Shown here: one piece after another, positions 21,791 through 52,566 of the stretch
How the letters are laid out: each line of letters begins with the position of its first letter
Position numbering within the stretch: the stretch's first letter is position 1
Source of the DNA: Caldisericia bacterium
Lineage (GTDB): Bacteria > Caldisericota > Caldisericia > JAAYUI01
Length of the DNA: 64,000 nt
Direction of reading: 5' to 3'
Assembly: GCA_017992475.1 (NCBI GenBank)
Contig: JAGOOO010000003.1
Location: 1 to 64,000, forward strand
The notes under the pieces: generated by a model
Database searches by the model: none
Seen by the model: only the letters and a program-made list of their open reading frames with translations
What the model was told of the DNA's origin: nothing
Translations under genes and position numbers: made by a program

Positions 21791-24700
21791 GTGAAGAAGC
21801 TGATTGCTCTGGGTTGTGCTCTTGTCATTGCGCTGGGTTTTTACTGGAAAGCTTCAGGTGAAGGATGCAGCTGGCCGTGCTATGGTGGCAACAGCAGGCA
21901 TAACTTCTATTCTGATTGCGGCCCACAGGGAAACAATCTGGGTCTCTTCTGGAAGTTCGAGACAAAAGGGCCAGTCCTTTGTTCTGCCTCCTATGATGGC
22001 GATAGTATATACATTCCATCAACAGATCACAGGCTGTATTGCCTTGATCCTGAAACAGGTGAGGAAAAGTGGAAATTTGAAACCGAGTCGGAGATGAGAT
22101 CCCAGCCTTATGCCACCGGCAAGATGGTTTATTTTGGCTCGCAAGATCACAATATGTACTGTTTGAACGCATCAAATGGAGACAAACTCTGGAGTTTCAA
22201 GGCAAGGGGCGGTATTATTTCAAGCCCGACAGTATATGGGACAAATTGTTATTTTGGCTGCCTTGGCAGGTATCTTTATTGTGTCGGTGCAAGCCTTGGC
22301 GAGCTCAAATGGAAGTTTGAGACAAAGGATGGCATTATTTCAAGTCCACTGGTTTTTTTAAACAAGGTTTATTTTGGGTCAAAAGACCATTCCCTTTATG
22401 CCGTAGATTCCGAGACCGGCAAGCTGTTCTGGTCATTCAAGACTGATGGCAGCATCTATTCTTCAGTTGCCGCCCAAAACAACAAGATATATTTTGGCAG
22501 TGATGATGGCAACGTTTATTGCCTAGAATCTGAAACTGGCCAGCTCCTTGCACAGTTTCAAACCGGCGCCACCGTCAGGACCTCTCCGGCGCTCATGGGC
22601 GACTACCTTTACGTTGGTTCTGGCGACAATATCTTTTGCCTGGACAAAAATACAATGGAAGAGATCTGGCGTTATACCGAGCCTAAAATGCAAGTCACAA
22701 CATGCACTCTTGTTAGTTCCAAGGTTTATGTCGGTGTGGGCAGTACAATCTGCTGCCTTGACTCAGAGACTGGTGAAAAACTCTCAGTCTTCCAGGCAAA
22801 AGGTTCCATGTGCCAAGCAAGCATTGCCACAGACAGAGTACTTGCAGGTTCTCTGGATGGTAACCTCTACTGTTTGGGTGATATCAGCCCGGAAATTGAA
22901 ATAAAACCAGAAAACATAAACTTTGGCGAGATGTCCAAAGGTGAGCAAAAATCAGTTTCACTGATCATAAAAAATAAAACAGAGAAAGACCAGACGGTTA
23001 TACTAACCATCAATAAATCATGGCTCAAGCTTGATAATACCGCTATTTCGCTAATTCCTGGTGAAGAAAAAACAATCACCGCCTCCATTGACTGGGAGAA
23101 AATCACAGATGTTGGAATGCAAAGGGCATCGATAAAGCTTGTCTGGGGTTCAAGCCAGAGTATAGTACTTGCGAAGGCTTATGTTCTTTATGAGTTAGAT
23201 TCTGAATTCAAAGGCTGTGGTTGGGGAAACAGCAAGGCAAATCCACAAAGGACCGGTTCAACAGGTGCGGAGTGCGGCCCCTTGACTGACTCTGTGGCAA
23301 AAATCTGGTCAACAGGTTTTAGCCAGCCTTTTGGAAATTCTCCTTGTGTTGTGGGCGATTGGATAATAGCTGGCCCAACATGGGGAAAGATGATTTCCTG
23401 TTTACTGGTCGAAAATGGCTCTGTAGTGTGGAACACTGAACTGGACAAATACATTACTTCATCACCGTCTGCAACAATGGATTATACAATAATTGGTGCC
23501 CAGGAGATGCTTTATTGCATGGACACCGAGTCTGGAAAAAAATTGTGGGAGTTTCAGACTGAAGGAGACATCCTCTCCAATCCCATGATAATTGATGACA
23601 GGGTGTTTTTTGGTTCGAAAGATGAGTATGTTTATTGCCTTGCTGTCAATACAGGCAAGCTCCTGTGGAAATCAGACGAACTTTCGCCGATTGTAACTTC
23701 TGGGACCATTTGCATGAACAGGATATGCTTTGGTGGAAGCGACGGGAAACTCTACTGCCTTGCGACGGAATCAGGCAGCATTCTCTGGACATTCACAGCC
23801 AAAGGAGAGATTGCAACCGCAGCATATGAAGCCAACAAGCTCTTTTTTGCAACAAGAGAAAAGATGGTTTATTGCATAGAGGTAACAACTGGCAAAAGAG
23901 TATGGATTTATGAAGCAAAGAGCCAGATACAATCCTCTCCGTCGGTCTCTGAAGGCCAAGTTTATTTTGGCTCCAATGATGGCTCCGTGACCTGCCTTGC
24001 CCAGTCAGATGGCAAGAAGAAATGGGAGTTTGTCACTGGGAATTATGTCACTGCTTCACCCTCAATCTATGGGAAAAAGGTCATTGTTCCTTCGCAAGAC
24101 AAATCCATCTATTGCCTAGATTCATTTACAGGCGAAAAACTCTGGTCCTTCAAATGTCAGGATTCGATAAAATCTGAAGCTATCATTTATAAAGGCAATA
24201 TCATCTTTGGTTCTTATGATAAGCAGGTTTATTGCCTTTCTGATACCAAGGAAACTTTAACAATTGAGCCAAAGAAAGTTGATTTTGGCTCGATCCAATC
24301 TTATGACCTCTATGGTTCCCCAGACCCCATCATGCTTGAGGTTGGCAACACCTCCGAGGAAGAGATGGTTGTGGAACTCTCCACGGCCTCAACGTGGTTT
24401 GTGCTATCAAACAAAACACTTGTCATTGCCCCAAAGAGCAAATACATTGTAAAAATTGGCCTCACGGCAGATGGCATTACAGACCAAGGCAACTATTGGG
24501 GACAGATAAAACTGAAATCTGGAGATTATGAAGACCAAATTGATGTCAGGGTCTACATCTCAGGAGAAGACCAGGATGAAGAAGCTTCGGGTTGTGAGTG
24601 GATTTGTTTCAAGAGGAACCCGGCCAGAACAGGTTTTGAATTTGACGGATGTGCCCCTGCAGCTACAGAGCTTGTAAAAATATTCTCTGTAAAGATGAGG

Positions 24701-25969
24701 GACATGGTGGAGTCTTCTCCAGCAACCTTTGACGGCAGGCTTTTTGTTGGTTGCATGGATGGCAACCTCTATTGCTATGATGCAGAGAATGGCAAGGAGA
24801 TATGGAATTTCGAAACTGGAGGGCCGATCTATTCCTCACCGGCGATATTTGAAAAAAGGATTTATTTTGGCTCCAATGATTCAAACGTGTATTGTGTCGA
24901 TTGGGAAGATGGCTCATTGCTGTGGAAATTTGAAGGGCCATCTGGTTTCCAGTCATCTCCGGTGATAACGGGTGATTTTGACAACAAACCAAGGGCATAT
25001 ATTGGTTGCAATGATGGCTACATGTACTGTCTCGATGCCAAGACGGGCGAGAGGATTTGGAGCTATAAGACTGCTGGTGCTGTCAGCTCTTCTCCGGCCG
25101 TTTCCTTTACAAAAACATCAGGCAAGCTTTCAAAGCTGGACAGGGTTATTTTTGGCTCTATGGATGGCAAGATTTACTGTCTTGACGCCATTTCTGGCGC
25201 CAAATATTGGACATATGATTGCAAAGCTCCGGTAAAATCAACTCCCTGCATCAAGGATGATAAGGTCTATGTTGGTTGCCATAATGGGATGTTTTACTGT
25301 TTGAACGTTGCGACTGGTTACAACATGTGGACATACAAAACTGGCGTTGTGAACTCGCCTTCATTTTTTGGAGGGAATATTTATTGTGCAACATCCGATT
25401 CTCTCCTCATATGTCTTGAGGGGAAAACTGGCAAAAACCTGTGGTCGTACCGAGCCAGTGGTGGTTTTATGACTTCACCCGTGGTTTGTGGTGGGAAGGT
25501 CTACCTTGGCACTCTGGACAAAAAAGCAATTTGCATTGATGCCGGTTCCCCTGAGAAGATATGGTCAGCGGTACTTCCGGAGGAGGTCATTTCCTCCCCG
25601 ATAATTTCCATGGGAAGGCTTTATATCATCTCAGAGGATGGGACATTGTTCTGCTTCTCTGAAACAACCAGGGAAGTTTCTGTAGAACCTGATAATGCTG
25701 ATTTCGGGCTTGTGGAAGAGGGCAGAGAGCCCATAATGCCAATAACGCTGACCAACAGGATTGCAAAGAAGGTCACCGTTTCCATCACAAAAGAAGGTGA
25801 CTTTTTCTCAGTGAAACCTGCAACCTTTGAGATGAAGAGTGGCGAAAAGGTGAATTTTAATATTTCAATTGATCCGCAAAAAGCCCAGAAGGGCCCGAAC
25901 AATGGGCTTGTAAAAATTGCGTGGAATGACAGAGTTGTCGTGCTCCCAGTAACAATTATGATTAAGTGA
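21791..25969 (+). CDS. Secreted protein with three 8-bladed PQQ-type propellers and ASH-like domains
   Basis: The 1392-aa protein starts at a GTG with GGGAGG five bases upstream. A signal peptide (KKLIALGCALVIALGFYWKA) follows. Three propeller modules, each with eight blade repeats of the type LYCLDxxTGxxxW, alternate with three ~95-residue Ig-like domains. The Ig-like domains begin IKPENINFGE, IEPKKVDFGS and VEPDNADFGL, the pattern of ASPM/SPD-2/hydin-like domains. Each propeller is preceded by a cysteine-bearing head such as GCSWPCYGGNSRHNF. Twenty-three of 24 blades have Cys before the LD; the exception reads LYAVD. No quinoprotein dehydrogenase catalytic residues are visible. A role as an extracellular scaffold is inference. 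Confidence 0.88.
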   Translation: MKKLIALGCALVIALGFYWKASGEGCSWPCYGGNSRHNFYSDCGPQGNNLGLFWKFETKGPVLCSASYDGDSIYIPSTDHRLYCLDPETGEEKWKFETESEMRSQPYATGKMVYFGSQDHNMYCLNASNGDKLWSFKARGGIISSPTVYGTNCYFGCLGRYLYCVGASLGELKWKFETKDGIISSPLVFLNKVYFGSKDHSLYAVDSETGKLFWSFKTDGSIYSSVAAQNNKIYFGSDDGNVYCLESETGQLLAQFQTGATVRTSPALMGDYLYVGSGDNIFCLDKNTMEEIWRYTEPKMQVTTCTLVSSKVYVGVGSTICCLDSETGEKLSVFQAKGSMCQASIATDRVLAGSLDGNLYCLGDISPEIEIKPENINFGEMSKGEQKSVSLIIKNKTEKDQTVILTINKSWLKLDNTAISLIPGEEKTITASIDWEKITDVGMQRASIKLVWGSSQSIVLAKAYVLYELDSEFKGCGWGNSKANPQRTGSTGAECGPLTDSVAKIWSTGFSQPFGNSPCVVGDWIIAGPTWGKMISCLLVENGSVVWNTELDKYITSSPSATMDYTIIGAQEMLYCMDTESGKKLWEFQTEGDILSNPMIIDDRVFFGSKDEYVYCLAVNTGKLLWKSDELSPIVTSGTICMNRICFGGSDGKLYCLATESGSILWTFTAKGEIATAAYEANKLFFATREKMVYCIEVTTGKRVWIYEAKSQIQSSPSVSEGQVYFGSNDGSVTCLAQSDGKKKWEFVTGNYVTASPSIYGKKVIVPSQDKSIYCLDSFTGEKLWSFKCQDSIKSEAIIYKGNIIFGSYDKQVYCLSDTKETLTIEPKKVDFGSIQSYDLYGSPDPIMLEVGNTSEEEMVVELSTASTWFVLSNKTLVIAPKSKYIVKIGLTADGITDQGNYWGQIKLKSGDYEDQIDVRVYISGEDQDEEASGCEWICFKRNPARTGFEFDGCAPAATELVKIFSVKMRDMVESSPATFDGRLFVGCMDGNLYCYDAENGKEIWNFETGGPIYSSPAIFEKRIYFGSNDSNVYCVDWEDGSLLWKFEGPSGFQSSPVITGDFDNKPRAYIGCNDGYMYCLDAKTGERIWSYKTAGAVSSSPAVSFTKTSGKLSKLDRVIFGSMDGKIYCLDAISGAKYWTYDCKAPVKSTPCIKDDKVYVGCHNGMFYCLNVATGYNMWTYKTGVVNSPSFFGGNIYCATSDSLLICLEGKTGKNLWSYRASGGFMTSPVVCGGKVYLGTLDKKAICIDAGSPEKIWSAVLPEEVISSPIISMGRLYIISEDGTLFCFSETTREVSVEPDNADFGLVEEGREPIMPITLTNRIAKKVTVSITKEGDFFSVKPATFEMKSGEKVNFNISIDPQKAQKGPNNGLVKIAWNDRVVVLPVTIMIK

Positions 25970-26015
25970 TATCAAGCCAGCCCCTTTTTGGTTATAATTA
26001 CCAAAAGGAGGCATT

Positions 26016-26251: not shown

Positions 26252-29200
26252 ATGAAAAAAATAACTGCAAGGGCGCTTGCGCTTTTGATTGTCATGTCGT
26301 CTGTTTTTGTTTCTGGCCCTGGCGTTGCTGCCAGCTGTGATTGCACAAGGTTCAAGTTCGACCTTGGCAATAACGGGGTTTTCCCTTCTGAGTGTGCGCC
26401 AGAAAACAATGACCTTGTAAAGCGCTGGTCATATATGACAGGAGGTTCTGTTACCTGTGCACCACTCGTTGTCTCTGGAAAGGTTTATGTGGCTTCGTGG
26501 GACAACAAGATGTATTGCCTAGATGCAGAGAAAGGGACTCTCTCCTGGTCAGCAAAGATAGGCGGGGTCCTTAACGGGATATGTTATGATTCAGACAGGG
26601 TTTATGCTTCCTGCACCGACAAAAGGGTCTATTGCCTTGATGCAAAAACTGGGAAGCAGCTCTGGGTTTTTACAATGTCATCCGCAAGCATCTCCAATCC
26701 CCTGGTTTATTTGGGCAAGCTCTATGCAGCCTGCGGCAAAACAAATGACAAGACAAACAAGGGTGATAATTACATTTATTGCCTGGATGCCAAAACGGGA
26801 AAAGCCATCTGGAAGGTAAAAAACCAGGTGGGTTTTGAGGCTTCCCCAGCAATTGCTGGCGGGAAAATTGTCATAGGATCAAACGACAATTGCATGTATT
26901 GTTTTGATGCGACAAATGGCAAACAGCTCTGGAAATCTGCAAGGGTAGGCAGTGAATTTGATGCCCCAGCATCAATATCAGTTGCTTCCGGCAAGATATA
27001 CGCTGGGAACTGGGACAAAAAGCTATACTGCCTCGATTTGAAGACTGGCAAAACTCTCTGGACCTACCTTGCTGGAGGGCCGATACTTACAACACCAACA
27101 ATTGCCGAGGGTAAAATCTATTTCGGCAGTGATGATGGCAACCTATACTGCGTTGACGGATCATCAAAAAAGCTTTCCTGGAAATACAAAACAGACGGAA
27201 AAATCAACAACTCATCACCTGTATATTGTGCAGGGAAGATATATTTTGGCTCCTATGACAATAAGCTCTACTGCCTTGATGCAAAAACTGGCAAGGAGCT
27301 GTCTTCTTTTGAAACAAAGGATGAGGTGTGGTCAACACCTGTAATCTGCAATAAAAAGATCTATTTTGGGTCAAACGACAGCAACGTTTATTGCCTTGAA
27401 GCGCGTGTTGAAAAACCAGTTAAAATGACCATAAAGCCAAAATTTGCCGTGCTGAAACCTGGCCAGAGCATACTTTTTACTGCCACAGTCTACAACAATT
27501 ATGATGAGGTCATGAAAGACCAGAAAATAACCTGGTCTTTGACGGACCCCAAAACCGGAACGCTTGATTATGGCGGTCTCTTTGGTGCCAAATCGCCAGG
27601 GCTGACTGATATTGTTGCCACTTCCGGCCAGCTCTCTGCAAGGGCAAAAGTCTATGTCTATGACGAGGGGCTGAACCTTGAAAAGCAGGGTTGCGACTGG
27701 CCATGTTTTGGCGGTGACCCGAGCAGGACTTCATCCACAGAGGCCGATTGCGGTCCAAAAACCGACAAGCTGAAAATATTGTGGAAATACAATGCAAAAT
27801 CGCCTCTCACCACCCAAGCAATTTCTGTGGATGGGATGGTTTTTGCGGGCGCCCAGGACGGCAAGTTCCATTGCATGGATCTTGAGACGGGCGCAAAGAT
27901 CTGGGAGTTCAAATCGGGGGCGCTTGCCTACACGCCGGTTTACTGGCAGGGAAAACTGTTTGCGCCGTCATTTGACAAGAAACTCTATTGCCTCGACGCA
28001 AAAACTGGCAAAGAGCTCTGGTCTTTTGAGGCTGGCGGAGAGATAAGGACATCGCCAACTATTTATCAGGGAAAGCTTTATTTTGGCTGCGGCAAGGTCC
28101 GTGACGACAACGAAAACAATTCCGGTAAAAACGCCCTGTATTGCCTTGACGTCCTGACTGGCAAGCTAGTATGGGAGAACCCGAACAAGATAGATTTCGA
28201 GTCATCACCGACTGTTGCCGATGGCAAAGTATTTATCGGGTCCAGTGATGACACCTACTACTGCTTTGATGCAAACACAGGCGATATTTTGTGGACAATC
28301 GACAGCAAGAACGATTTTGACGGTGAAACAACATATTTTGATGGCAGGATCTATTTCTCCACATGGGACGGCATTGTAAGGTGTGTTGATCCCCGTTCCG
28401 GTGACGCCATCTGGACGAGTGAAATAGACAAGGCAGTTTTTGGCCCTCTGGCGATAAGGGACGGCAGGATTTTCGCCATTTCCACAAACAAGAGGATGTT
28501 CTGCCTCTCGCTTGTGGATGGCAAGGTGCTTTATGATGTGCCAATGGAAGGCTCATCGTTTTATTCCGTGGCCTGCTACGGGAATAGGGTGGTTCTTGGC
28601 GATACCGGTGGATTGATCAAGTTGCTTGACGCTTCTACAGGCGAGGAAAAATTTGCCTACAATGTAAAAGGCGGGAAGGATTTTGTGTATCCATCAGTTT
28701 GTGGAGGAAAGATACTCTTCACAAACACCGATGGCTTCCTCTACTGCTTTGTTGATGATGACACTGTCGAGCCTGAAAAACCATATCCGGCCAGACTTGT
28801 TGTCCAGCCGAAGGAATCAGTCCTGAAACCAGGCGAGACCCAGCAGTTTACGGCCACGGTTTTTGACCAGTTCGACCAGGAGATGAAAGATATCCAGATA
28901 AGCTGGGAATGCTCTGATGCTGAAATCGGGTCAGTTGACCAGAACGGCCTCTTTACTGCCATCAAGGATGGGGAATGCACCGTAACCGCTACTTACCTTG
29001 AACTTTCTGACACCGGAAAAGTGAAAGTGCTCAAGATCGCAAAACCGGAAGAAGTGACTTGCGAGTGGAGCCAGTACAGGGGCAACCTCCAGAGAAATGG
29101 CGTTGTTCCTGATGGTTGCGGGCCTGACCCGGCAAAGACGGAACTTATCTGGAGCTTTGAAACAGGTGATGACATCTATTCTTCGCCAACCATCTCCGAT

Positions 29201-30091
29201 GGCAGGGTTTTTGTCGGTTCGGACGACAATCATCTCTATTGCCTCGATCTGGCGAGTGGGTCAAAGATATGGGACTTCACCGCTACAGGCAGGGTGTTCT
29301 CTCCGGCAGTCGATTCCGGAAGGGTCTATGCCTGTTCCTATGACAGAAACCTCTACTGCCTGGACGCAAAAACAGGTAACAAGATATGGTCATTTATGTC
29401 CCAGGGCCCAACATTCTCCTCCCCAGTGGTGTGGGAAAACAGGGTATATTTTGGGTCAAAGGACCATTTTATGTACTGCCTTGATGCCACCACAGGGAAA
29501 CTGCTCTGGAAGTTTGAGGCACCCGACCAGGTTGATTCATCGCCTGCGCTCTGGGAAGGCAAGATATATTTTGGATGTGAGGATAAGAGCCTTTATTGCC
29601 TGGACGCGCTAACTGGCAAGAAAATATGGGACTTTAAGACTGGCTATATGATAACCTCAACGCCTGCCATCTGGAATGGAAAGGTCTACATTGGTTCCGA
29701 TGACAAGAAGCTTTATTGCCTGGACGCCCAGACTGGCTCCCAGGTGTGGATGTTTGAGGCAGGCGGTGTCCTCCACTACTCTTCACCTGCGATCTGGAAC
29801 GGGAGGGTGTTTGTGGGTGCGACTGATTCCTTCCTTTATTGCCTGGATTCTGAAACTGGCAAAAAGCTTTGGACGTTCAGGGCGGAAGGGTGGGTAACCA
29901 GCCCGGCAGTTTGTGGTGACAAGGTCTGGTTTGGCAGCCAGGATTATTATTTCTACTGCGTTGATTTCAACACTGGCGAGAAGATATGGTCTTTCAAAAC
30001 AGAAGGAGCCGTTTCATCACCTGCCATTTCAAACGGCCATATACTGGCAGGCTCTTTTGACAACAAACTCTACTGTTTTGGTGCAAAATAA
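26252..30091 (+). CDS. Secreted protein with three 8-bladed PQQ-type propellers and Big2-like domains
   Basis: The 1279-aa protein has a signal peptide (MKKITARALALLIVMSSVFV) and then three propellers of eight blades each. They are separated by two Ig-like domains of the Big_2 kind (LKPGQSILFTATVYNNYDE; LKPGETQQFTATVFDQFDQ), a different linker type from the ASH-like domains of the gene upstream. Module heads include GCDWPCFGGDPSRTSS and CEWSQYRGNLQRNG. Twenty-three of 24 blades carry Cys; the exception reads KLLD. GGAG precedes the ATG by five bases. A TATAGT box also lies only nine bases before the ATG, so the leader may be very short. Ligand and partner are unknown. Confidence 0.88.
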   Translation: MKKITARALALLIVMSSVFVSGPGVAASCDCTRFKFDLGNNGVFPSECAPENNDLVKRWSYMTGGSVTCAPLVVSGKVYVASWDNKMYCLDAEKGTLSWSAKIGGVLNGICYDSDRVYASCTDKRVYCLDAKTGKQLWVFTMSSASISNPLVYLGKLYAACGKTNDKTNKGDNYIYCLDAKTGKAIWKVKNQVGFEASPAIAGGKIVIGSNDNCMYCFDATNGKQLWKSARVGSEFDAPASISVASGKIYAGNWDKKLYCLDLKTGKTLWTYLAGGPILTTPTIAEGKIYFGSDDGNLYCVDGSSKKLSWKYKTDGKINNSSPVYCAGKIYFGSYDNKLYCLDAKTGKELSSFETKDEVWSTPVICNKKIYFGSNDSNVYCLEARVEKPVKMTIKPKFAVLKPGQSILFTATVYNNYDEVMKDQKITWSLTDPKTGTLDYGGLFGAKSPGLTDIVATSGQLSARAKVYVYDEGLNLEKQGCDWPCFGGDPSRTSSTEADCGPKTDKLKILWKYNAKSPLTTQAISVDGMVFAGAQDGKFHCMDLETGAKIWEFKSGALAYTPVYWQGKLFAPSFDKKLYCLDAKTGKELWSFEAGGEIRTSPTIYQGKLYFGCGKVRDDNENNSGKNALYCLDVLTGKLVWENPNKIDFESSPTVADGKVFIGSSDDTYYCFDANTGDILWTIDSKNDFDGETTYFDGRIYFSTWDGIVRCVDPRSGDAIWTSEIDKAVFGPLAIRDGRIFAISTNKRMFCLSLVDGKVLYDVPMEGSSFYSVACYGNRVVLGDTGGLIKLLDASTGEEKFAYNVKGGKDFVYPSVCGGKILFTNTDGFLYCFVDDDTVEPEKPYPARLVVQPKESVLKPGETQQFTATVFDQFDQEMKDIQISWECSDAEIGSVDQNGLFTAIKDGECTVTATYLELSDTGKVKVLKIAKPEEVTCEWSQYRGNLQRNGVVPDGCGPDPAKTELIWSFETGDDIYSSPTISDGRVFVGSDDNHLYCLDLASGSKIWDFTATGRVFSPAVDSGRVYACSYDRNLYCLDAKTGNKIWSFMSQGPTFSSPVVWENRVYFGSKDHFMYCLDATTGKLLWKFEAPDQVDSSPALWEGKIYFGCEDKSLYCLDALTGKKIWDFKTGYMITSTPAIWNGKVYIGSDDKKLYCLDAQTGSQVWMFEAGGVLHYSSPAIWNGRVFVGATDSFLYCLDSETGKKLWTFRAEGWVTSPAVCGDKVWFGSQDYYFYCVDFNTGEKIWSFKTEGAVSSPAISNGHILAGSFDNKLYCFGAK

Positions 30092-30294: not shown

Positions 30295-32427
30295 ATGAAA
30301 TCCAGACTGATTACAGCAATGTTGGCTATTATACTAGCTCTCCAGATGCCTGTTTTTGCCATGGCCGAAGAAGGAAAATGCGATGATTGGGTAATGTTTA
30401 ACCATGATCCTTCGAGGTCTTGTCTGACAACGAACCAGGCGGCACCGCCGCTTCTTGTTGGAGAGGCCTACAAGGCCACGGCCGCCATTCACAGCTCAAT
30501 TGCAATGACCGACAGGTACAGCGTGGTTGGTTCTGATGACATGAGGATATATTGCTACGACACTCACTCATTCAGGATAAGGTGGAACTATCTGACTGGA
30601 AACAAGGTCCGCTCGTCACCAACAATTTTTGGAGAAGTAACAATCTGTGGCTCGGATGACGGCTACCTCTATTGCCTGAACCTTGAAACTGGAAATGAAG
30701 TCTGGAAATTCAAAACTGGCGATATCATAAGATCGTCACCCCTTGTTGTTAACGGGAAGGTCTATTTTGCATCAAGGGACATGAAGGTTTATTGCCTTGA
30801 CGTCCTTTCTGGCCAGAAAGTCTGGGCATTCCATACGGGTGCTTTTGTTGATGCCTCGCCGACCTACAATGAGCACAATAAGACTATCCTCATCGGTTCA
30901 TATTCAAAGAAGCTTTATTGCCTCAATGCCGAAAATGGCAGGCTGACCTGGGAATTTGAGACCCCTTCTGAGGTTTTTGCGGCCTGTTCTGTCAGAAACG
31001 AAAAGATATTTTTTGGCACAGATGGCGGTCAGTTCTATTGTCTGTCCGATGATGGCAGGCAGATCTGGAAGATAGATGTTGGTGCCCACGTCTGGGCAAC
31101 GCCAGCACTTGTTGAAGACAAACTCATAATTCCAACTGGATACGACAAGATGGTCCGTTGCCTCTACCAGGATACCGGCGAGGAAGTCTGGAATTTCAGG
31201 ACGGAAAACTGGAACTACTCCTCCCCGGCTGTCGGCGGAAAATACGTTTTCTTTGGGTCGGATGACCAGAATCTCTACTGTCTGTACTGGAAAACGGGCC
31301 AACTCGCCTGGAAGGGCAATCTTGGATACATTATTGAGGCGTCGCCTGTAATCTACTGCGAGGCAGTTTATGTTGGCACATGGGGTGGAACGGTTCAAGT
31401 TTTCCAGCCGGGGCCAATCCTTGAGGTTGAGCCGCAAGAAATTGATTTTGGTATTGTGACCCATGGAACAACACCTTTCAGGGACATCATCATCAGGAAT
31501 GCCAGAAAAGATCAGTTCCAGACGAAGCTCGAAGGAAAAATGGTTACTGATGAGAAACATCTTTCTTTCAGTGCGACCGAATTTTTTGATATAAGCAATG
31601 GTTCTGAGCAAAAAATCAGGGTAACACTCGATCCCGGTGGGCTTGATTATGGTAATCACCAGGCTTTGCTCAAGATATCTTCAAACGGTGGTGAGTTCAC
31701 CATGATAATCAGGTGGCGCATTGTTTCACCAGCACCACCATGCCTGAATGTTTCTCCATCCGAACTCAATTTTGGGTTCATCAAAAGGGGTGAGGAAGTC
31801 TCAAAGACGCTGACCCTTTCTTTTGATACCGATGAGGAAGTCTCCGGCATAGTGATGGGTGAAGACAGGTGGATTGATGTAGAACCAGTCTCTTTCACCT
31901 CGATAAATCGCAAGTTCCTTCTAAAGGTCACACTCAATGGCAGTAGAATACCGGCAGGCAACGAGGCCCAGGGAAGGATTGTCATTGCCACGAAAAATGA
32001 TGTTTGCCAGCAGGTTTCCGTCATGGTAAAGGTCGAAACCGAGCCCAGGATAGAGATCTCAATGGTCATTGGCGACAACACGGCTTTTGTAAATGGCAGG
32101 CCTGTTGACATGGACGTTGCCCCGTACATAACGAGTAAGGGCAGGACGATGGTCCCGATAAGGTTTATCTCCGAGACCTTTGGTGCCGACGTCAAATGGA
32201 TTGCCGACAAGAAAGAGATACAGATAAACAGGTTTGACAATAGGGTCAAGCTCTGGGTAGGTCGTCCTGAAATGGACGTCAATGATCTCATAAAAGCCAT
32301 CCCCTCCCCGCCAGAGATAAAAGACGGCAGGACAATGGTTCCTTTCAGGGCAATAGCCGAGGCCTTTGGCGCCGATGTAGTGTGGATTGCCGAGACAAAA
32401 ACAGTGAGGATGGTCTTCAACCCATGA
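30295..32427 (+). CDS. Secreted propeller protein with two ASH-like domains and a copper-amine-oxidase-N-type C-terminus
   Basis: The 710-aa protein starts at an ATG with no ribosome-binding site, seven bases behind a -10 box. A signal peptide (LITAMLAIILALQMPVFAMA) leads to one eight-bladed PQQ-type propeller; seven of eight blades have the Cys. Two Ig-like domains follow (VEPQEIDFGIVTHG; VSPSELNFGFIKRG). The last ~120 residues form a two-lobed CuAO_N1 domain (KGRTMVPIRFISETFGADV and DGRTMVPFRAIAEAFGADV). The same domain ends the giant protein at 38263-45087, so it may be a shared wall or complex-binding module; that is inference. Its stop overlaps the next start as ATGA. Confidence 0.88.
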   Translation: MKSRLITAMLAIILALQMPVFAMAEEGKCDDWVMFNHDPSRSCLTTNQAAPPLLVGEAYKATAAIHSSIAMTDRYSVVGSDDMRIYCYDTHSFRIRWNYLTGNKVRSSPTIFGEVTICGSDDGYLYCLNLETGNEVWKFKTGDIIRSSPLVVNGKVYFASRDMKVYCLDVLSGQKVWAFHTGAFVDASPTYNEHNKTILIGSYSKKLYCLNAENGRLTWEFETPSEVFAACSVRNEKIFFGTDGGQFYCLSDDGRQIWKIDVGAHVWATPALVEDKLIIPTGYDKMVRCLYQDTGEEVWNFRTENWNYSSPAVGGKYVFFGSDDQNLYCLYWKTGQLAWKGNLGYIIEASPVIYCEAVYVGTWGGTVQVFQPGPILEVEPQEIDFGIVTHGTTPFRDIIIRNARKDQFQTKLEGKMVTDEKHLSFSATEFFDISNGSEQKIRVTLDPGGLDYGNHQALLKISSNGGEFTMIIRWRIVSPAPPCLNVSPSELNFGFIKRGEEVSKTLTLSFDTDEEVSGIVMGEDRWIDVEPVSFTSINRKFLLKVTLNGSRIPAGNEAQGRIVIATKNDVCQQVSVMVKVETEPRIEISMVIGDNTAFVNGRPVDMDVAPYITSKGRTMVPIRFISETFGADVKWIADKKEIQINRFDNRVKLWVGRPEMDVNDLIKAIPSPPEIKDGRTMVPFRAIAEAFGADVVWIAETKTVRMVFNP

Positions 32428-38192: not shown

Positions 38193-38221
38193 TTGAACTT
38201 GACCCCAAGATTTCGTGTATT
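38193..38221 (+). promoter_or_regulatory. Possible promoter of the second giant gene
   Basis: TTGAAC is followed after 17 bases by TGTATT, a moderate match. It lies about 40 bases before the ATG at 38263, which has AAAGGAG. Confidence 0.4.
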
Positions 38222-38262
38222 TGAAGCAAATCAGCCATGAATGCATCGAAAGGAGTTTCAAG

Positions 38263-41200
38263 ATGAGAAAGCTCTTGGCTACAATGCTAACGCTCGCGGT
38301 GGCGCTCACCGTGGTTCCGTTTTTTGGCGAAATACCACAGGCTTATGCCGAAACAAAAAACATACTTTTTGCAGTAGTCAGGTGGTCTCCGCTTGGACAG
38401 GACAGGAGCGGCCAGCCACTCTCCGGCAGGGTCGTTCCGTGGACTTCCGGCGATATTTCCACCTGGTGGGGCAGGCAGCAATTTCCGATGCCGTCCCAGC
38501 CAAGGTATTGGTCGGAAGTTTATCTTACCGTTATTGGTGCAGGCGGGCAGTCCACTGAAAAAGACAAGATGAACTGCATCCTGGACTCAAACGGCAACAT
38601 CTGGTTTGACCCGGACGGCTATTTCCACAATGCTGCCGAAAGAGCAAGACCAGACCCGCCAGGTCAGTGTTACGACTACAACTTCAAGACAGACAATACT
38701 CCGGCCAACAACACACAGGGCCCATATAGGGTCGGCGACTATGCAAACTTCTTCCACAACAAGGGCTACTGGTTCACGCCGATCAGCCATCAACATGGCC
38801 CATACACCTTCCCGCGCAATTTTTCAGGGAGGCTTTTCAAGTTGGGGCAGGCTGCGCTTCCTGGCAATGGAATGGCTCTTGTCATGTCAGAGACCTTCCT
38901 TGCATCTTGCGATCCGAACACCTCCTACAACCTCTCGGTTGAAACCGATATGTGGGAAGGCGTCAATCCGGCCGTTACCGCTGCATCAATCTTTGACCCT
39001 GAAAACCCGACACTCAGAAGATCGCAGAGAATCCAGAAATCAACCGTGCTTGGCCCTACTGGCCTGGATTTTCAGGTCCCGGCAACCACTTTTTTCAATG
39101 TTAAGCCGTCTTACAGGAGCTACGTAGGCATTGAGATATTTAGGGATTCTGGTGAAAACAATATCAACAACCCGCAAGGTCAGTGCTTTGCCCAAAACCT
39201 TTCTGATGACTACAAGGCCTTGTATGCCTGTGAGGATTTCATTGGCGCCTCAAATTCAGGAGTGAATGATTCCGATACCGGCCTCCCACTAAAACCCTTC
39301 CCGGCAAGCTTCAGGTATTACGACAGCGGCGGAACCGGTTTTGGCTGTGGCGAGCCGATATATGACAACCTCAACACCGCCCAGGACCCGTTCATGAACG
39401 ACATCGTCAACCCTGGCGACAAGCGTATGACCACCGTCACGTTTAGTGTTGGTGGAGCTATAGTCACCTATGAGGCTGGCTCGTATGTTTCAGCCGGTGA
39501 TGTCGATAATGGCTATATTATTCGTCCATTCACGAACGTTGGCTGGTTTGATGCCAACAATAACAACGAGTTTGAAGAGGGTGAATGGATTTATCAGGAC
39601 AATGATCTTTCCAACTCCGTAACTGCCGGTGACGTTCGTCTGACGGTGGTCAACAAGAATGGCAACACCTATCAGTGCGGAACGGTTGTTGCCGGCCCTG
39701 AGCTTTACATAAGGAGCTATCCGATTTCTGGTATAACTGTTGGAAGGTGCGGCAATTTCCGCTTCATGGACATGGAGGTCCTGCCGGGTGTTGCACCTGT
39801 GCAGGTGAATGTCTCGAGACCGTTCAAGGTCGAACAGACCTCGGAAGTCAATTTGACAATGAACCCGGCGCCTGACGAAGGCAGAATAGCCTACATAGTG
39901 CTGACTGATGCCTCAGGCCAGAGAAACGTTGCTGGAACGATAACCAAAGATCGCCCAAGAGCCACTGTCCAGATAACTCCCTATGAAGGCTCTTGCGACG
40001 AATTTGGCAGGATTCACCCATATCTTATAGAGGTTTATTATGAAAAGGGTACTGGCAAACCACAAGACATTGGTTGGGGAGGCCCGCCAGATGGAACTTA
40101 CGGATATTGGGTTGTTCCTTCCCCGCAGATCCTGAACAACACCATTATTCCGAACAACTATGACTGCTACCTGGCAAAAGAGTTCACGGTGGAGCCGGAA
40201 GACATGTATTTTGACTGCAGCACCGTCTGTCTTACAAACATCTCGACCCGCTACCCGAACTTTGTTTTGACCCTCAAAGATTTTGACAACCCATATGATG
40301 TGAATGACCTCAATGGCGTCAACATCTCAACCACGGCTTCTGCAGGCAATATTATTGCCTACTACAATTGCACAGGGGCCGGCATCGACTGGATGTTTAC
40401 CGCTGGCACTGGCACAAACAGATACATAGTCCAGGTCAACAAGGATGGCACATACTATTACTGGGCCTGGAACGACAACCAGAGCCCGACGCCAGGCATT
40501 GGTGCCATTGGCGCACTTGACCAGGAAGACACTGTTGTTGGGCCGACACAGGGCAATATCAATTCAGGCAGTCTTGTTGATATAGACTGCTCTGGAAGAT
40601 TTGCAGAATGCGACATCTGTGGCCAGGGCTTCGAAAAAATGGGTGTTGTGACCAAAGGCGACACATGGGGCCAGTTTGACGGCGTCAATTTGCCAGTCAT
40701 TGAAACGTATGGTGTGCCATGCTTTGTCACCACATACAAGACGACCCCATGGGCCGATCCAGGTGGAAGCATAATGGTGGCCTGCTGGCCACCAGACCGC
40801 ACCTCCAGCCTGAATGTAAGGGTGCACACTGATAATGCACTTTGGGATTACAACAGCACAATCACCCACCCACCATACTTTATCACCTCGCCTGCCAAGG
40901 GCACCGACTATTGTGGTGTCCACGTCATCCCGCCAACTGCCTCCGGTGGAGGAGGCGGTGGAGGCGGAGGTGGTGGCGGTGGTGGAGGAGGAGGCGGCGG
41001 GGGTGGTGGCTCCGGTGGTTATGGAGACATCAATTTCGTCGAATTTACCGCAATTGACCACGCCCTCCAGTACTCCAGCGTCAACTACACCTCTGGCTCT
41101 GGTGCCCTGTCCAGGATGCCACCCCCGGCCTCCCAGATACAGTCACCTTATGACCCTGTTCTTTCAAATCTTGTCAGGGAATTCAGGGCATATCCTGGTG

Positions 41201-44200
41201 GACAGACACACCCAATCAGGGTGCAAGGTGGAATGGGGGACGGAAGGAACGCATATCCTGCCATATTCCGCGACCAGGTGTGGAAGCTTGGAACAGAGTT
41301 CCTGCCTCTCACAGATTATGGTCTTTTCTTTATGCTCACAAATGCAAGGAGCGAGTTCCTCTCGTTCAATGCAACAGACAGCGACCACAAGATACAGTGG
41401 ATAGAAATAACCGGGCCATTCATGACGCCAAGATTCCCGATCACCGACTATACATACAATGGCCTCAGGAATGTGCCAGTACAGTATGACTATTCTGGCA
41501 GGATTGTGGTTGACCAGACCAACTGGAGAGACTACGAGCTTGCCCCGCAAGACTTCACCAGGATCATAAACCCTGGATTCAAGGACCGCTATGTCTACCA
41601 GCAGGCCAACCAGAGGCTCCTCCAGAGCAGAAGGCTGGACTATTCGATGGTCAATGGCAACGTGTTTGTTTTTGACGAGATAATCCCGGTTGACAGAGGT
41701 GTCATAAGGATCGAAGTCAAGCTGGCAAACGGCCAGTCAAGGATCTGGGAAGATTGCTGCCAGGAGTACAGGATACAGGGAATCCCGGTCCACGGGCTCC
41801 ACATAGAAGGTGCACCCGGGACACTCGGAATCATTGCCGACAACGTCCTTGATGTCAAAATCACCGAATGGGAAGACATCCAGGTGGTCAGGGAATGCAA
41901 CGATGCAATGGCCTATGTCTGGCAGGACAGGGGTGTCCTCCAGCAGATGGGCGGCAACGTTTTCTTTGGCGCAGGCGATGGCTGGGTGACAAACGGCCCG
42001 TCATCCTCTGTTGGCTCCGGCTCGGCTGGCGCCTTCAGCAGTGACATGGACCTGAACGGTGACGGAAGAATTTCTTTTGATGCCTACGAAACCGAGCTCA
42101 TTGGCGCCTACAACCTGGCGACCAACAGCTGGGTGGGCGGCATCATTGATGCAAGGACTTATCAGCGCAACAACGGCAGGTATGTCTTTGACATGAGCCT
42201 TTCAAACGGCTGCAGGATTGAAGATGCCGGCCTTGATTTCAACAATGACCATGTTATTGCAGAGGACGAAAGATTGCCGGTCAATCTGACCGTTTACAAA
42301 TATTATGATGATAACAACGACAGGAGCTTTGCCCCTCTCTGGAACGTCCCTGGAACCAGGCAGTACTACTCGCACGAGGTTTACCTTGCCGGCCAGGTAA
42401 GCATGTATCCGGAGCCAGGTGGCGGGGTATCAAAGGACCCCAACATCATCATTGAAGTCAATCCAGGCATTGTGACTGCGGGCGTTTCCCCCGAGGTTGT
42501 CAATTCGAACCAGCCACTGACCTTTACCATAAAGGACATAAACGGCAGGCCGGTCGACCTAACCAAGGGTGGGAAGCTGAAGCCGGAAGAGGCAGTCAGC
42601 TTCATATCTGATGCCAGACCGGAACGTGTTGGTGCCTATTACTGGACAGTGACCTCACTGCGCAACAAAGATGGCACAATATCGGACAATGAGCACCTGT
42701 TTGGCGAGTTCAAGCCGATAGGCTACGATTTCTCGCAGGCCTCCAAAGGCATATACAAGTTCACAGGTTTTGTGGCCAATGACGAGGGTGAAATACAGAT
42801 AAAAGTACGCTCGTCCGACTACAAGAGTTGGGGTGTAGGTTCAATCAAGGTCGCAAGACCAAAGGTTACCTATTCGATAACCAACGTGGCAACAGGCGAT
42901 GCTGTCACAATGAAGTGGCCGGAGGAACCAGAGGCCTGCATGACCGGCCTTGACCGCCGCGTTTACAAGGTTGTTGCAACACTCAAGGACGCACAGGGCC
43001 AGCTGCTCAAGGGCTCGTCAAAACTGCCGGGCAAGTATGGCTCTTCGACAGATTTTATCAGGTTTACCCCGTTCCTTGTCCTTGACGCCGGCGCTGATCC
43101 GGAAAAATTGACTTATTTCAACAGGTTCGGGATTTCATCAACAGGCGAAATCTCTTCCACTTCAAACCTTGTCAAGCCAATGTCTGTAAGATGCAAGACG
43201 AGCGCAAAGCTCGATGGCTCAACAATAGACCTGAAGAGCTGGGGCAAGGGTTGCGTGTACAACTCCGAGATCGCAGGCAACTACTTCTTCTCTGATTTCA
43301 ACGGTGATTCGAGGATTGACTACAAGGATTCGCTCAACCCGGATGAAAATGGAAATGTTACCTTCTACGTCTTTGCTGACCAGGTGTTTATGGTTGGCGG
43401 CCTGCTCGGTGCCAACAAGGCATCGGTCATCAAGGGAGATGTTGCCGGCGATGCCCCAAGATCACAGTCGATGGCCTTCAATCCGCTCCTCAGGTACAAG
43501 GGCGATGGCACATTTGCACTCGACTGGGACACCCCGACAGTAACCAATGTTCCGATAAAGCAGCCTGTTATAAGGCTCTATGACCAGAACGTCGGCGATG
43601 AGCTTTCCACAGGGTTCCTGTCGCCTTCCAATTACGACCTTGCCTATGGCACCGACAATGTTTTTGTGGCAAGGGTGACGCCAGCATGTCAGAAGGAAAC
43701 GGACCCGATAAAGCCTGGTGGAATAATTGAAGTCGCAAGCGTGGGCGCAAAGTCTGAAGTAAAAACCAGCGTCGAGACCACCCAGAGCAAGGTTGACCCA
43801 AAGGCCTCCGAGGCCATTGTCCACTACACGCCGACAAGCAACACCGGCACATCGGTTGCAACCCTCAGCTATAAGGCAAAGGCCACATTCGGGGAAGACG
43901 TTGTCATAGCCCGCAAGTCGCTTGAGTTTGATGTTGCAAAGGGCGCAAGCCTCAATGTTGTTTATGCCGGCACCTTCTACCCCGGACTCCAGAAGAAGAT
44001 CGCCGTCACGGTTGAAGACGTTGCCTCCAGGGCGCCACTCTCCAATGTCACTGTAACGGTGCAAGGAGCAGGCGTCATGATGGAGGCCAAGACAGGGCCA
44101 AAGGGTGAAGTTGAATTTGATGTCCTACCGACAAAGCCAGGCAAGATAGTCGCCAGGCTGGACAGCGGAACATACATAACGGTGAACCCGCAGGTAATAG

Positions 44201-45087
44201 AAGTTGTTTCACCTGTCGCCCCGCCGCCTCTTGAGATTGAAGAGGTGTCGCCTCTTACAAAGGAAGACCAGATAACAATCAGGGGCAAGACAAACTCCGA
44301 GGCGGTGGTCTCTGTTGGTGGAAACCCGGTGAGTGTTGGCTCTGATGGCGTGTTCTTTGTCACCGTCACGCTCAAGGAAGGTGTAAACGAAATCGAAGTC
44401 GTTGCCGCCAATCCTGTTGGCACAAAGATTTCAAAGAAGATCACCATCACAAAAGACACGACCCCGCCAGTGGTTGAATTTGTCCAGCCGAAAACAAAGC
44501 TTGTGAATGCAAAGCAGGTTGAGGTTGAAGGCAATGCCAGCGAGAAAGCAAAACTGGCCATTGATGGAAAAATCATCGAAGTCGGGCCGGGCAAGTTTGT
44601 GGTCACACTCGATCTTGTGCTTGGCAAAAACACATTCAAGTTTGAGGCAACCGATGCCCTTGGCAACCAGTCCAGGCCGACCCTTGAGCTGTACAACTGG
44701 CAGATAAAGCTGGTTCAGATGAAGATAGGAAACGATGTTATGCTTGTCGATGGCCAGATAAGCAAGCTCGATGTGGCGCCCTATGTTGACCCGCAAACCA
44801 GCAGGACACTTGTACCTGTCAGGGCGATTGCCCAGGCCTTTGGCGCGAAGGTTGACTGGAACGCCCAGGTCAAGCAGGTGACCATAACCCTTGGCAAGGA
44901 CCTGATCATGATGACAATCGGCTCGAAGGTCGCCATTGTGAATGGAAAGATCTCCCAGCTTGAACAACCACCACTGATAAAAGACGGCAGGACAGTCCTC
45001 CCGTTCAGGTTCATAGCCGAGGTGCTTGGCGCAGAGGTGCAGTGGAACGGCGACGAGAAGACGATAACGATGACCAGATACTACTAG
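38263..45087 (+). CDS. Giant secreted calcium-loop protein with poly-Gly tract and CuAO-N-type C-terminus
   Basis: The 2274-aa protein starts at the ATG with AAAGGAG seven bases upstream. A signal peptide ends near AYAET. It is paralogous along its length to the giant protein at the left edge (NIWFDPDGYF, NNTQGPY, YNLSVETDMWEGV, MAYVWQDRGV). Calcium-type loops occur at DMDLNGDGRISFDAYE and DFNGDSRIDYKDS. A run of 22 glycines sits in the middle. The C-terminal third has Ig-like domains (DGVFFVTVTLKEGVNEIEVV) and ends in a CuAO_N1 domain (SRTLVPVRAIAQAFGAKV; GRTVLPFRFIAEVLGAEV) that the paralogue lacks. The paralogue instead has about 300 extra residues near its N-terminus. Probably an abundant surface component; function unproven. 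Confidence 0.85.
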   Translation: MRKLLATMLTLAVALTVVPFFGEIPQAYAETKNILFAVVRWSPLGQDRSGQPLSGRVVPWTSGDISTWWGRQQFPMPSQPRYWSEVYLTVIGAGGQSTEKDKMNCILDSNGNIWFDPDGYFHNAAERARPDPPGQCYDYNFKTDNTPANNTQGPYRVGDYANFFHNKGYWFTPISHQHGPYTFPRNFSGRLFKLGQAALPGNGMALVMSETFLASCDPNTSYNLSVETDMWEGVNPAVTAASIFDPENPTLRRSQRIQKSTVLGPTGLDFQVPATTFFNVKPSYRSYVGIEIFRDSGENNINNPQGQCFAQNLSDDYKALYACEDFIGASNSGVNDSDTGLPLKPFPASFRYYDSGGTGFGCGEPIYDNLNTAQDPFMNDIVNPGDKRMTTVTFSVGGAIVTYEAGSYVSAGDVDNGYIIRPFTNVGWFDANNNNEFEEGEWIYQDNDLSNSVTAGDVRLTVVNKNGNTYQCGTVVAGPELYIRSYPISGITVGRCGNFRFMDMEVLPGVAPVQVNVSRPFKVEQTSEVNLTMNPAPDEGRIAYIVLTDASGQRNVAGTITKDRPRATVQITPYEGSCDEFGRIHPYLIEVYYEKGTGKPQDIGWGGPPDGTYGYWVVPSPQILNNTIIPNNYDCYLAKEFTVEPEDMYFDCSTVCLTNISTRYPNFVLTLKDFDNPYDVNDLNGVNISTTASAGNIIAYYNCTGAGIDWMFTAGTGTNRYIVQVNKDGTYYYWAWNDNQSPTPGIGAIGALDQEDTVVGPTQGNINSGSLVDIDCSGRFAECDICGQGFEKMGVVTKGDTWGQFDGVNLPVIETYGVPCFVTTYKTTPWADPGGSIMVACWPPDRTSSLNVRVHTDNALWDYNSTITHPPYFITSPAKGTDYCGVHVIPPTASGGGGGGGGGGGGGGGGGGGGGGSGGYGDINFVEFTAIDHALQYSSVNYTSGSGALSRMPPPASQIQSPYDPVLSNLVREFRAYPGGQTHPIRVQGGMGDGRNAYPAIFRDQVWKLGTEFLPLTDYGLFFMLTNARSEFLSFNATDSDHKIQWIEITGPFMTPRFPITDYTYNGLRNVPVQYDYSGRIVVDQTNWRDYELAPQDFTRIINPGFKDRYVYQQANQRLLQSRRLDYSMVNGNVFVFDEIIPVDRGVIRIEVKLANGQSRIWEDCCQEYRIQGIPVHGLHIEGAPGTLGIIADNVLDVKITEWEDIQVVRECNDAMAYVWQDRGVLQQMGGNVFFGAGDGWVTNGPSSSVGSGSAGAFSSDMDLNGDGRISFDAYETELIGAYNLATNSWVGGIIDARTYQRNNGRYVFDMSLSNGCRIEDAGLDFNNDHVIAEDERLPVNLTVYKYYDDNNDRSFAPLWNVPGTRQYYSHEVYLAGQVSMYPEPGGGVSKDPNIIIEVNPGIVTAGVSPEVVNSNQPLTFTIKDINGRPVDLTKGGKLKPEEAVSFISDARPERVGAYYWTVTSLRNKDGTISDNEHLFGEFKPIGYDFSQASKGIYKFTGFVANDEGEIQIKVRSSDYKSWGVGSIKVARPKVTYSITNVATGDAVTMKWPEEPEACMTGLDRRVYKVVATLKDAQGQLLKGSSKLPGKYGSSTDFIRFTPFLVLDAGADPEKLTYFNRFGISSTGEISSTSNLVKPMSVRCKTSAKLDGSTIDLKSWGKGCVYNSEIAGNYFFSDFNGDSRIDYKDSLNPDENGNVTFYVFADQVFMVGGLLGANKASVIKGDVAGDAPRSQSMAFNPLLRYKGDGTFALDWDTPTVTNVPIKQPVIRLYDQNVGDELSTGFLSPSNYDLAYGTDNVFVARVTPACQKETDPIKPGGIIEVASVGAKSEVKTSVETTQSKVDPKASEAIVHYTPTSNTGTSVATLSYKAKATFGEDVVIARKSLEFDVAKGASLNVVYAGTFYPGLQKKIAVTVEDVASRAPLSNVTVTVQGAGVMMEAKTGPKGEVEFDVLPTKPGKIVARLDSGTYITVNPQVIEVVSPVAPPPLEIEEVSPLTKEDQITIRGKTNSEAVVSVGGNPVSVGSDGVFFVTVTLKEGVNEIEVVAANPVGTKISKKITITKDTTPPVVEFVQPKTKLVNAKQVEVEGNASEKAKLAIDGKIIEVGPGKFVVTLDLVLGKNTFKFEATDALGNQSRPTLELYNWQIKLVQMKIGNDVMLVDGQISKLDVAPYVDPQTSRTLVPVRAIAQAFGAKVDWNAQVKQVTITLGKDLIMMTIGSKVAIVNGKISQLEQPPLIKDGRTVLPFRFIAEVLGAEVQWNGDEKTITMTRYY
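40945..41010 (+). repeat. Run of 22 glycine codons
   Basis: Twenty-two consecutive GGN codons use all four glycine codons in irregular order, followed by SGGYG. The paralogue has an ordinary sequence at this place. Confidence 0.97.
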
Positions 45088-49001: not shown

Positions 49002-49039
49002 TTTTTTAGAAAACGGCCACAAAAACAAAGGAGCAGATA

Positions 49040-50017: not shown

Positions 50018-50035
50018 TATATTATTGGAGACAAA

Positions 50036-51355: not shown

Positions 51356-51366
51356 TTTGATAAATG

Positions 51367-51399
51367 ACAAAGCCCCCTCGGTAATCGAGGAGGCTTTGT
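51367..51399. terminator. Long hairpin between convergent genes
   Basis: ACAAAGCC and CCTCG pair with CGAGG and GGCTTTGT around GTAAT with one bulged pair. The T-tract is weak on both strands, but its place between two stops supports a bidirectional terminator. Confidence 0.7.
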
Positions 51400-51420
51400 C
51401 CAAAAGAACAGAATAGGGTC

Positions 51421-52566
51421 TCACCTGATTGTAAAGCAGAGCACCTTCCCGTCGGTGCAGGTGATGATGGTGCCGTCAGAGATTGCGATGTTTGCGTTGA
51501 TCGGATAGCCGCAATCCAGCTTTGCAAGCTCCTTGCCGGTTTTTGCGTCCATGCAGTAGAGCGTCTTGTTGTCGCTGCCGAAAAACACCTTGTCGCCACA
51601 GATTGCTGGTGAGCCAAACACGTTGTCACCAACGGGTGCATTCCAGACTTCCTTGCCGTCTGCAATATTCAGGCAATAGAAGGTGTCTAAGTCCGAGCCT
51701 GTAAAGACAAACTGGTCGTAAACGGCTGGTGCGGTCACCTTGTCGCCGCTCTTGAATGTCCACAGCTTTGCGCCAGTGAGTGCATCGAAGCAGACCAGAT
51801 TGGCGTCACCAACGATTGCCCAGACTTTTCCGGACGAGGCAACAACCGGGTTGACTATTCCGTCATCGGTCTTGCTCTCCCAGACCAGCTCGCTAGTTTC
51901 CTGGTTGAGGCAGTACAGTTTCTGGTCCTGCGAGCCAAAATAGACCTTGCCATCCAGCAGGGCCGGTGCAGAGGCGATTCCCCTCCCGGCCTTGAAGCTC
52001 CAGTATTCATAGCCGCTGTCGGCGTTCAGGCAGTGGAAGTTGCCGCCCATGTCGCCAAAGAATGCCACTCCACTACTAACTGCTGGTGAAGACTCGATCT
52101 TTGAGGAGAACTTTGATGTCCAGACCGGGTTTTTTGACCTGGTGTTCACACAGTAGAACTTTCCAGCTTCATCGGCAAAATAAATCTTCTCGCCAGAGAT
52201 GCACGGTGTGTTCCAGATTTTTGCGTCTGCCTGGAAGCTCCATTCTTCCTTGCCTGTCGGGATGTCCAGGCAATAAAGCTTGTCACTGCCAAAGTACGCT
52301 TTTCCGTTTGATGCAACCGGTTGGCCCCTCAGGGGTTCCTTTGATTCAAACTCCCACGCCTTCTCGATTGCCGGCTGGGCCGAGATTCCACCTGTTGCGG
52401 TGCCAGTCCTTGACATGTTCCCCATCATCATTGGCCAGTCCTGGTGTGTTGCCACTTGCTTGCCAGTGTCTGTGCCGCCACTATTTGCCCCATCGCCGCT
52501 TCCACAGCCTATGAGTGGGAGGGCGAGAACCATGAATAATACTGTCAAAACAGCGAATTTCTTCAT
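51421..52566 (-). CDS. Lipoprotein with a single 8-bladed PQQ-type propeller
   Basis: The 381-aa protein starts at the ATG with AAAGGAG four bases upstream. Its lipoprotein signal ends LPLIGC. A Gly/Asp-rich linker leads to the head DWPMMMGNMSRTG and eight blades of the LYCLD-TG-W type, all with the Cys. It is the smallest and simplest of the four propeller proteins in the window. It resembles BamB in fold only. The partner is unknown. Confidence 0.87.
   Translation of the reverse strand: MKKFAVLTVLFMVLALPLIGCGSGDGANSGGTDTGKQVATHQDWPMMMGNMSRTGTATGGISAQPAIEKAWEFESKEPLRGQPVASNGKAYFGSDKLYCLDIPTGKEEWSFQADAKIWNTPCISGEKIYFADEAGKFYCVNTRSKNPVWTSKFSSKIESSPAVSSGVAFFGDMGGNFHCLNADSGYEYWSFKAGRGIASAPALLDGKVYFGSQDQKLYCLNQETSELVWESKTDDGIVNPVVASSGKVWAIVGDANLVCFDALTGAKLWTFKSGDKVTAPAVYDQFVFTGSDLDTFYCLNIADGKEVWNAPVGDNVFGSPAICGDKVFFGSDNKTLYCMDAKTGKELAKLDCGYPINANIAISDGTIITCTDGKVLCFTIR

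Follow-up and report, generated by a model that had tools for sequence, protein, structure and literature searches.

The four propeller genes

The window, meaning the whole 64,000-nucleotide stretch of DNA that was analysed, encodes four proteins that contain PQQ-type propellers. Translation and a list of Cys residues gave three modules of eight blades in each of P0001 and P0002, and one module in each of P0003 and P0004. Of the gene coordinates given in an earlier note on this DNA, three stand; the fourth, 51421-52566, is interrupted by stops when read on the plus strand, and the gene is instead encoded by the minus strand, at 51421-52581. The residue of interest falls in a single column of the blade, position 1 of the tryptophan-docking motif, and a Cys in this column is referred to here as docking Cys. 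PMC3506653 gives the motif, from the BamB structure, as AX[D/N]XXTG[D/E/K]XXW; there, the amide of the motif Ala bonds the carbonyl of the Trp of the same motif, and that Trp docks onto the peptide of the Gly in the next blade. PMC2716378, in which an aromatic residue contacts the succeeding blade, is consistent with that description. The propeller features of the window are the following.

21791..25969, plus strand: P0001, 1392 aa; three eight-bladed propellers, docking Cys in 23 of 24 blades; further HYDIN/Cep192/ASH-type Ig-like domains; hydrophobic N-terminus, signal-sequence-like by eye
21860..22888, plus strand: P0001 module 1; docking residues C C C A C C C C
22400..22402, plus strand: Ala codon of P0001 module 1 blade 4, an exception, placed by the blade model
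23210..24256, plus strand: P0001 module 2; Cys in 8 of 8 blades, blade 1 by eye
24584..25672, plus strand: P0001 module 3; Cys in 8 of 8 blades, blade 8 by eye
26252..30091, plus strand: P0002, 1279 aa; three eight-bladed propellers and two Big_2 Ig-like stretches; docking Cys in 23 of 24 blades
26330..27421, plus strand: P0002 module 1; Cys in 8 of 8 blades
27683..28771, plus strand: P0002 module 2; Cys in 7 of 8 blades
28622..28624, plus strand: Leu codon of P0002 module 2 blade 7, an exception, placed by the blade model
29039..30088, plus strand: P0002 module 3; Cys in 8 of 8 blades; module chosen for structure prediction
30295..32427, plus strand: P0003, 710 aa; one propeller at 30376-31410, Cys in 7 of 8 blades; further HYDIN/ASH-type Ig-like domain and two Cu_amine_oxidN1 stretches
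31399..31401, plus strand: Val codon of P0003 blade 8, an exception, placed by eye
51421..52581, minus strand: P0004, 386 aa; one eight-bladed propeller, Cys in 8 of 8 blades, blade 8 by eye; lipobox-like LPLIGC at the N-terminus, by eye

An N-terminal Cys pair, 17-19 residues apart and with the second Cys in C[G/A]P, is also present in each of the six P0001 and P0002 modules; the codons of the first Cys lie at window positions 21866, 23216, 24593, 26336, 27692 and 29060. A similar pair occurs in some other propellers of the family (L031, L067, L073, L192, L195 and L199). Elsewhere in the window, two giant proteins of 2797 and 2290 aa (66-8459 and 38215-45087) look related by eye, and few domains were recognised in either; in the second, over 20 glycines follow one another and the C-terminus carries a Cu_amine_oxidN1 domain. 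Seven ORFs follow one another on the minus strand at 54366-61227, with N-termini that are lipobox-like by eye.

Relation to known propeller families

All four proteins have PF13570 as their top Pfam hit (181-693 bits, cut-off 133), with PF13360 (PQQ_2) next, or, in P0003, next after Cu_amine_oxidN1; all four score well above the PF13360 cut-off of 27.6, at 131-428 bits. The likeness to PQQ-type eight-bladed propellers of PF13360 and PF13570, such as BamB, extends to the fold, the blade length, the motif Gly and Trp, and an N-terminal strand that closes the eighth blade. The window proteins differ from them in having Cys for Ala at position 1 throughout, and P0001 and P0002 differ from propellers such as BamB in having three propellers per chain and Ig-like domains. 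In a search with the BamB profile TIGR03300 (cut-off 285), P0001 and P0002 scored 392 and 398 bits, each summed over three propellers, and P0003 and P0004 fell under the cut-off at 135 and 119 bits. None of the four reached the NF008351 threshold of 423. PQQ-dependent alcohol dehydrogenases (TIGR03075), which are cofactor-binding enzymes, share the blade motif with the window proteins, but P0001-P0004 lie far under the cut-off of that family, with 209, 270, 58 and 77 bits against 480.

Single departures from Ala at position 1 are already known, since PMC11302035 describes blade eight of E. coli BamB and of GOX1969 as lacking the starting Ala. Keyword searches of the literature found no description of a docking-Cys swap in Caldisericia PQQ propellers. 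Within the scope of those searches, what is new here is a variant of a known docking motif, with Cys in place of Ala through a whole family.

Cysteine at the docking column in the window

The earlier note had counted, by hand, 64 blades with Cys at one column in 61 of them, and the count was borne out by translation, a list of every Cys and a blade model. This first model was built from the window blades with the column masked. It aligned 60 of the 64 blades to the column, giving 58 Cys, 1 Ala (P0001 residue 204) and 1 Leu (P0002 residue 791); the other four were placed by eye, three with Cys (P0001 537, P0001 1288 and P0004 382) and one with Val (P0003 369). The three exceptions, which had been read as LYAVD, IKLLD and VQVFQ, are therefore A, L and V at the column. 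A recount of the window blades by fixed position again gave 61 Cys.

The canonical motif is only partly kept in these proteins: Ala is present at position 1 in a single blade of 64, and the hallmark Gly and Trp are each present in 50 of the 56 blades with aligned columns. Docking Cys is present in 54 of the same 56. The Cys column carries 4.1 bits of information in the window blades, compared with 3.6 each for Gly and Trp; in the other tabulated groups, Gly and Trp are ahead of the docking column. Docking Cys is not a product of chance, since Cys makes up 1.7% of residues elsewhere in the window propellers and occupies the column in 60 of the 62 blades recognised by a second model.

Distribution across genomes and phyla

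The second blade model, also column-masked, was trained on blades from outside the family that had been found by the window-seeded first model; it recognises 62 of the 64 window blades. It was run on fetched ORFs, one of which (L063) yielded no blades, and loci L162-L191 were left out of the counts. PF13360 matches were found in 267 of 386 genomes. The sample from other phyla comprises 71 ORFs, which are high-ranking PF13360 matches and so biased to canonical propellers. The ORFs sampled include some that look like near-duplicates (L077/L078 and L036/L037/L040). L077 (1755 aa) and L078 (1727 aa), propeller ORFs on contigs 25 and 14 of the window's genome, share their offset and docking string, and may represent either assembly strain variants or a recent duplication.

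The closest named relatives are Caldisericales/Caldisericia MAGs, among which three records match P0002 residues 1-1279, with best segments 94-95% identical. The window's own genome (1.59 Mb in 58 contigs, 74% complete) has 106 PF13360 matches, and the four other family genomes have 63-76 each, with 38 candidates scored per genome. PQQ-type propellers are expanded in this Caldisericota family.

Docking Cys was found in 60 of 62 window blades, in 97 of 187 blades of other propellers in the same genome and in 111 of 156 blades from a second genus of the family. Thirteen ORFs of family relatives, nine of which correspond to window proteins and come from three MAGs, gave 200 of 213. In the rest of the class the frequency was 43/140, and in the phylum outside the class 0/23. 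Other phyla gave 66/465, with Ala in 290 blades and Cys as the second most common residue. The scoring of homologues at this column had been proposed in the earlier note, which counted a Cys equally common in unrelated PQQ proteins as part of what would refute it; this is not what was found, as 66/465 is far from 0 and far from 95%. Among ORFs with at least six blades, Cys is the commonest residue at the column in 15/15 non-window ORFs of the own genome and in 13/14 from the second genus, and Ala is the commonest in 49/52 from other phyla.

DNA patterns gave a similar picture. YCLDxxTG and YALDxxTG occur 112:7 in the five family genomes, with one of the 112 containing an in-frame stop. In 332 genomes outside the phylum, the Cys pattern matched in 40 genomes and the Ala pattern in 115; 3 of 55 Cys matches and, among the matches listed, at least 1 of 178 Ala matches were dropped for an in-frame stop. 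Judged from these sequences, docking Cys is a widespread minor alternative that has been made the consensus in this Caldisericota family.

Predicted structure, metal sites and disulfides

AlphaFold2 was used to model P0002 module 3 together with ten related modules, as the earlier note had suggested for one module. The model (mean pLDDT 91.5, pTM 0.89, with the first 20 residues poor) has eight four-stranded blades, in agreement with an eight-bladed fold. The docking Cys are model residues 68, 107, 147, 187, 227, 268, 307 and 346, all in the third strand of the blade. The fold is nearly the same as that of the designed proteins Cake8 (6tjg; Z 48.0, rmsd 0.9 over 309 residues) and v31Bagel8 (8prj; Z 43.6), but the blades of both read LYAIN, with Ala at the column. 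YxaL of Bacillus velezensis (7dxn) is a PQQ-like propeller with Z 43.1, rmsd 2.0 over 334 residues and 29% identity, and differs in that its solved chain has one propeller only. A search by sequence for a solved structure with docking Cys also matched 3hxj; residues were read in the designed proteins only, and all were Ala.

The earlier note had proposed that the Cys of a ring bind a metal or cofactor, or form disulfides between modules. Eight equivalent Cys per ring invite such a proposal, as do the additional Cys at, for example, columns -7, -15 and -17 and the N-terminal Cys pairs in 6/6 modules of P0001 and P0002. The geometry argues against it. In an eight-fold ring of radius r, equivalent points are 0.765 r apart by symmetry, and the third strand is displaced outwards from the first by about two strand spacings (9.6 Å). 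By this argument, neighbouring docking Cys would be at least 7 Å apart even in the limiting case with the first strand on the axis, and 11-13 Å apart by estimate. Such a third-strand spacing would be too wide for ring disulfides or a shared metal.

The sequence comparisons point in the same direction. Outside the window proteins, docking Cys showed no coupling with Cys at columns -20, -18, -17, -15, -9, -8, -7 or +14 (all p > 0.1); this could not be tested in the window itself, where nearly every blade has docking Cys. In other phyla a Cys blade often stands alone, which does not favour a ring of eight. Searches of the five family genomes, which are 69-95% complete, with one profile each for DsbA, DsbB and VKOR gave no match; the same searches gave matches in 8, 6 and 3 of 14 control genomes. 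Taken together, the spacing, the lack of coupling with other Cys and the Dsb and VKOR searches do not support metal or cofactor binding or intermodular disulfides. A ring that holds a metal or cofactor, or that is cross-linked by disulfides from blade to blade or module to module, is extremely improbable. The N-terminal Cys pair is a likelier disulfide candidate than docking Cys, though it lies in the low-confidence region of the model.

Anaerobic life and Cys content

Caldisericota are little-known, oxygen-avoiding bacteria, and the third proposal in the earlier note was that docking Cys simply reflects an anaerobic lineage habit. This is consistent with the absence of matches to COX1 in the five family genomes (G000-G004), and to DsbA, DsbB and VKOR in the same genomes, and with the higher Cys content of non-propeller ORFs at own-genome loci (1.59%, versus 0.95% in other phyla). 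As a description of the family, where Cys is the consensus, the proposal holds. As a general rule for anaerobes it fails, because docking Cys in the 71 ORFs of other phyla is found in 42/289 blades of COX1-positive genomes (14.5%) and in 24/176 blades of COX1-negative genomes (13.6%), and the pattern C:A counts of 26:99 and 26:78 in these two groups do not differ significantly (p 0.53). Anaerobiosis as a driver across phyla is thus not supported. Loss of DsbA was considered as another driver across phyla and gave a trend only, with docking Cys in 34/195 blades of genomes without a DsbA match and in 32/270 of genomes with one (p 0.11).

The raised background of 1.59% against 0.95% explains part of the shift at the docking column. 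Outside the column, Cys makes up 1.7% of window propellers, compared with 0.75% of propellers in other phyla. The C:A counts at the column go from 66:290 in other phyla to 97:25 in other propellers of the own genome and 60:1 in the window, a shift that far exceeds the change in background composition. Anaerobic life or a Cys-rich proteome, acting alone, is a quite improbable source of docking Cys.

Blade copying and a possible founder effect

Recent blade duplication was considered and rejected. The median pairwise identity of window blades is 32% with the column excluded, and blades of the same index in different modules are hardly more alike than blades of different index (0.296 versus 0.280). 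Recent copying is therefore no explanation for the repeated Cys. A founder effect is a further alternative: one ancestral blade with Cys would have given rise to the expanded propellers, and its Cys would persist without advantage. Amplification of a single blade into propellers is documented in PMC9218822, and Cys is the commonest docking residue in nearly all family ORFs with at least six blades, as would be expected under such descent. However, 61/64 Cys remain where the flanks have fallen to ~30% identity, docking Cys is at least as well kept in the window as Gly and Trp, and the covariation with column -12 described below indicates a structural constraint at the site. A founder effect is unlikely, if less so than the other alternatives. 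Between P0003 and L193, the one ortholog pair compared, which are 57% identical, 7/7 non-docking Cys and 6/7 docking Cys are kept, so Cys retention in this pair is not special to the docking column.

Covariation with column -12

Blades with docking Cys were compared with blades with docking Ala within the same protein, using 1000 within-protein shuffles over 78 ORFs with the window left out; because the comparison is within proteins, lineage cancels. The strongest signal was at column -12, where Lys/Arg goes with docking Cys and hydrophobic residues go with docking Ala (Z 5.16 for the former and -5.83 for the latter, both at a family-wise p of 0.001, the lowest value that 1000 shuffles allow). 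The signal was also present in other phyla alone (Z 3.62 and -4.45; p 0.030 and 0.003). It is uneven between class and family: in the class the Lys/Arg half was significant (p 0.034) and the hydrophobic half was not, and in the family the hydrophobic half was significant (p 0.011) and the Lys/Arg half was not after correction (0.93). In raw counts, Lys/Arg occupies -12 in 32/56 Cys blades and 55/274 Ala blades of other phyla, in 23/40 and 8/75 of the class, and in 111/177 and 10/31 of the family. The pairing is not exclusive to Cys, since Gly blades of other phyla have Lys/Arg at -12 in 7/18 cases. A scan without the within-protein control also placed Arg at -12 first in other phyla; in the class, such a scan reflects mainly lineage differences, and the within-protein results were therefore relied on.

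In the model of P0002 module 3, strand B starts at column -12 in each of the eight blades. Strands B and C follow each other in a hairpin, so the ends that bear -12 and the docking residue should adjoin. The two positions look like a packing pair, with a small Ala beside a bulky neighbour and a larger Cys beside a long basic chain.

The same covariation could be read as chemistry, with a cross-strand Lys or Arg activating each Cys as a redox-responsive or ligand-binding thiol. The near invariance of docking Cys fits this, as does the excess of Lys over Arg at -12 in Cys blades of the family (76 Lys, 35 Arg), given that Lys-Cys NOS bridges are reported to be widespread (PMC8964421). In Cys blades of other phyla, Arg is commoner than Lys (25 versus 7), which a Lys-specific bridge does not predict and which is better fitted by bulk or charge than by Lys-specific chemistry. 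An exchange of bulk accounts for the pair equally well. Chemically active thiols of this kind are very improbable. A symmetric crown of eight reactive thiols per ring, with pKa lowered by the cross-strand Lys/Arg, in an anaerobe lacking machinery for oxidative folding, that senses or scavenges oxidants or binds thiophilic ligands, is likewise highly unlikely.

A probable packing swap between blades

Docking Cys is a genuine trait of the whole family, and its character is structural. Its explanation is probably a family-wide packing swap between blades, Ala to Cys at docking position 1. In such a swap, Ala would have been replaced by Cys as the consensus across the expanded propeller set of this Caldisericota family. 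The docking thiol would stay free and reduced and be mostly buried where one blade meets the next, and there the Cys may fill volume beside the docked Trp and the cross-strand neighbour and so steady the Trp girdle; both the burial and the Cys-Trp contact are predictions of this reading. The swap could have spread because the envelope of these bacteria leaves thiols unoxidised.

Several observations count against the packing swap. Docking Cys in the window (54/56) is slightly better kept than Gly and Trp (50/56), which is more than a passive filler would need. The Lys/Arg neighbour could lower the thiol pKa and give the Cys a chemical role. The covariation at -12 is uneven between class and family, and Lys/Arg is also seen there in Gly blades of other phyla. 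Finally, the raised Cys background accounts for part of the shift, and in the P0003-L193 pair the non-docking Cys are retained as well.

For this family of bacteria, the finding means that the consensus residue of a textbook repeat motif is exchangeable throughout a large set of propellers, and the covarying partner at -12 may explain how the blade interface tolerates docking Cys. It also carries the caution that a repeated cysteine need not mean a metal site. Natural all-Cys and all-Ala propellers provide material for measuring what the docking position contributes to stability.
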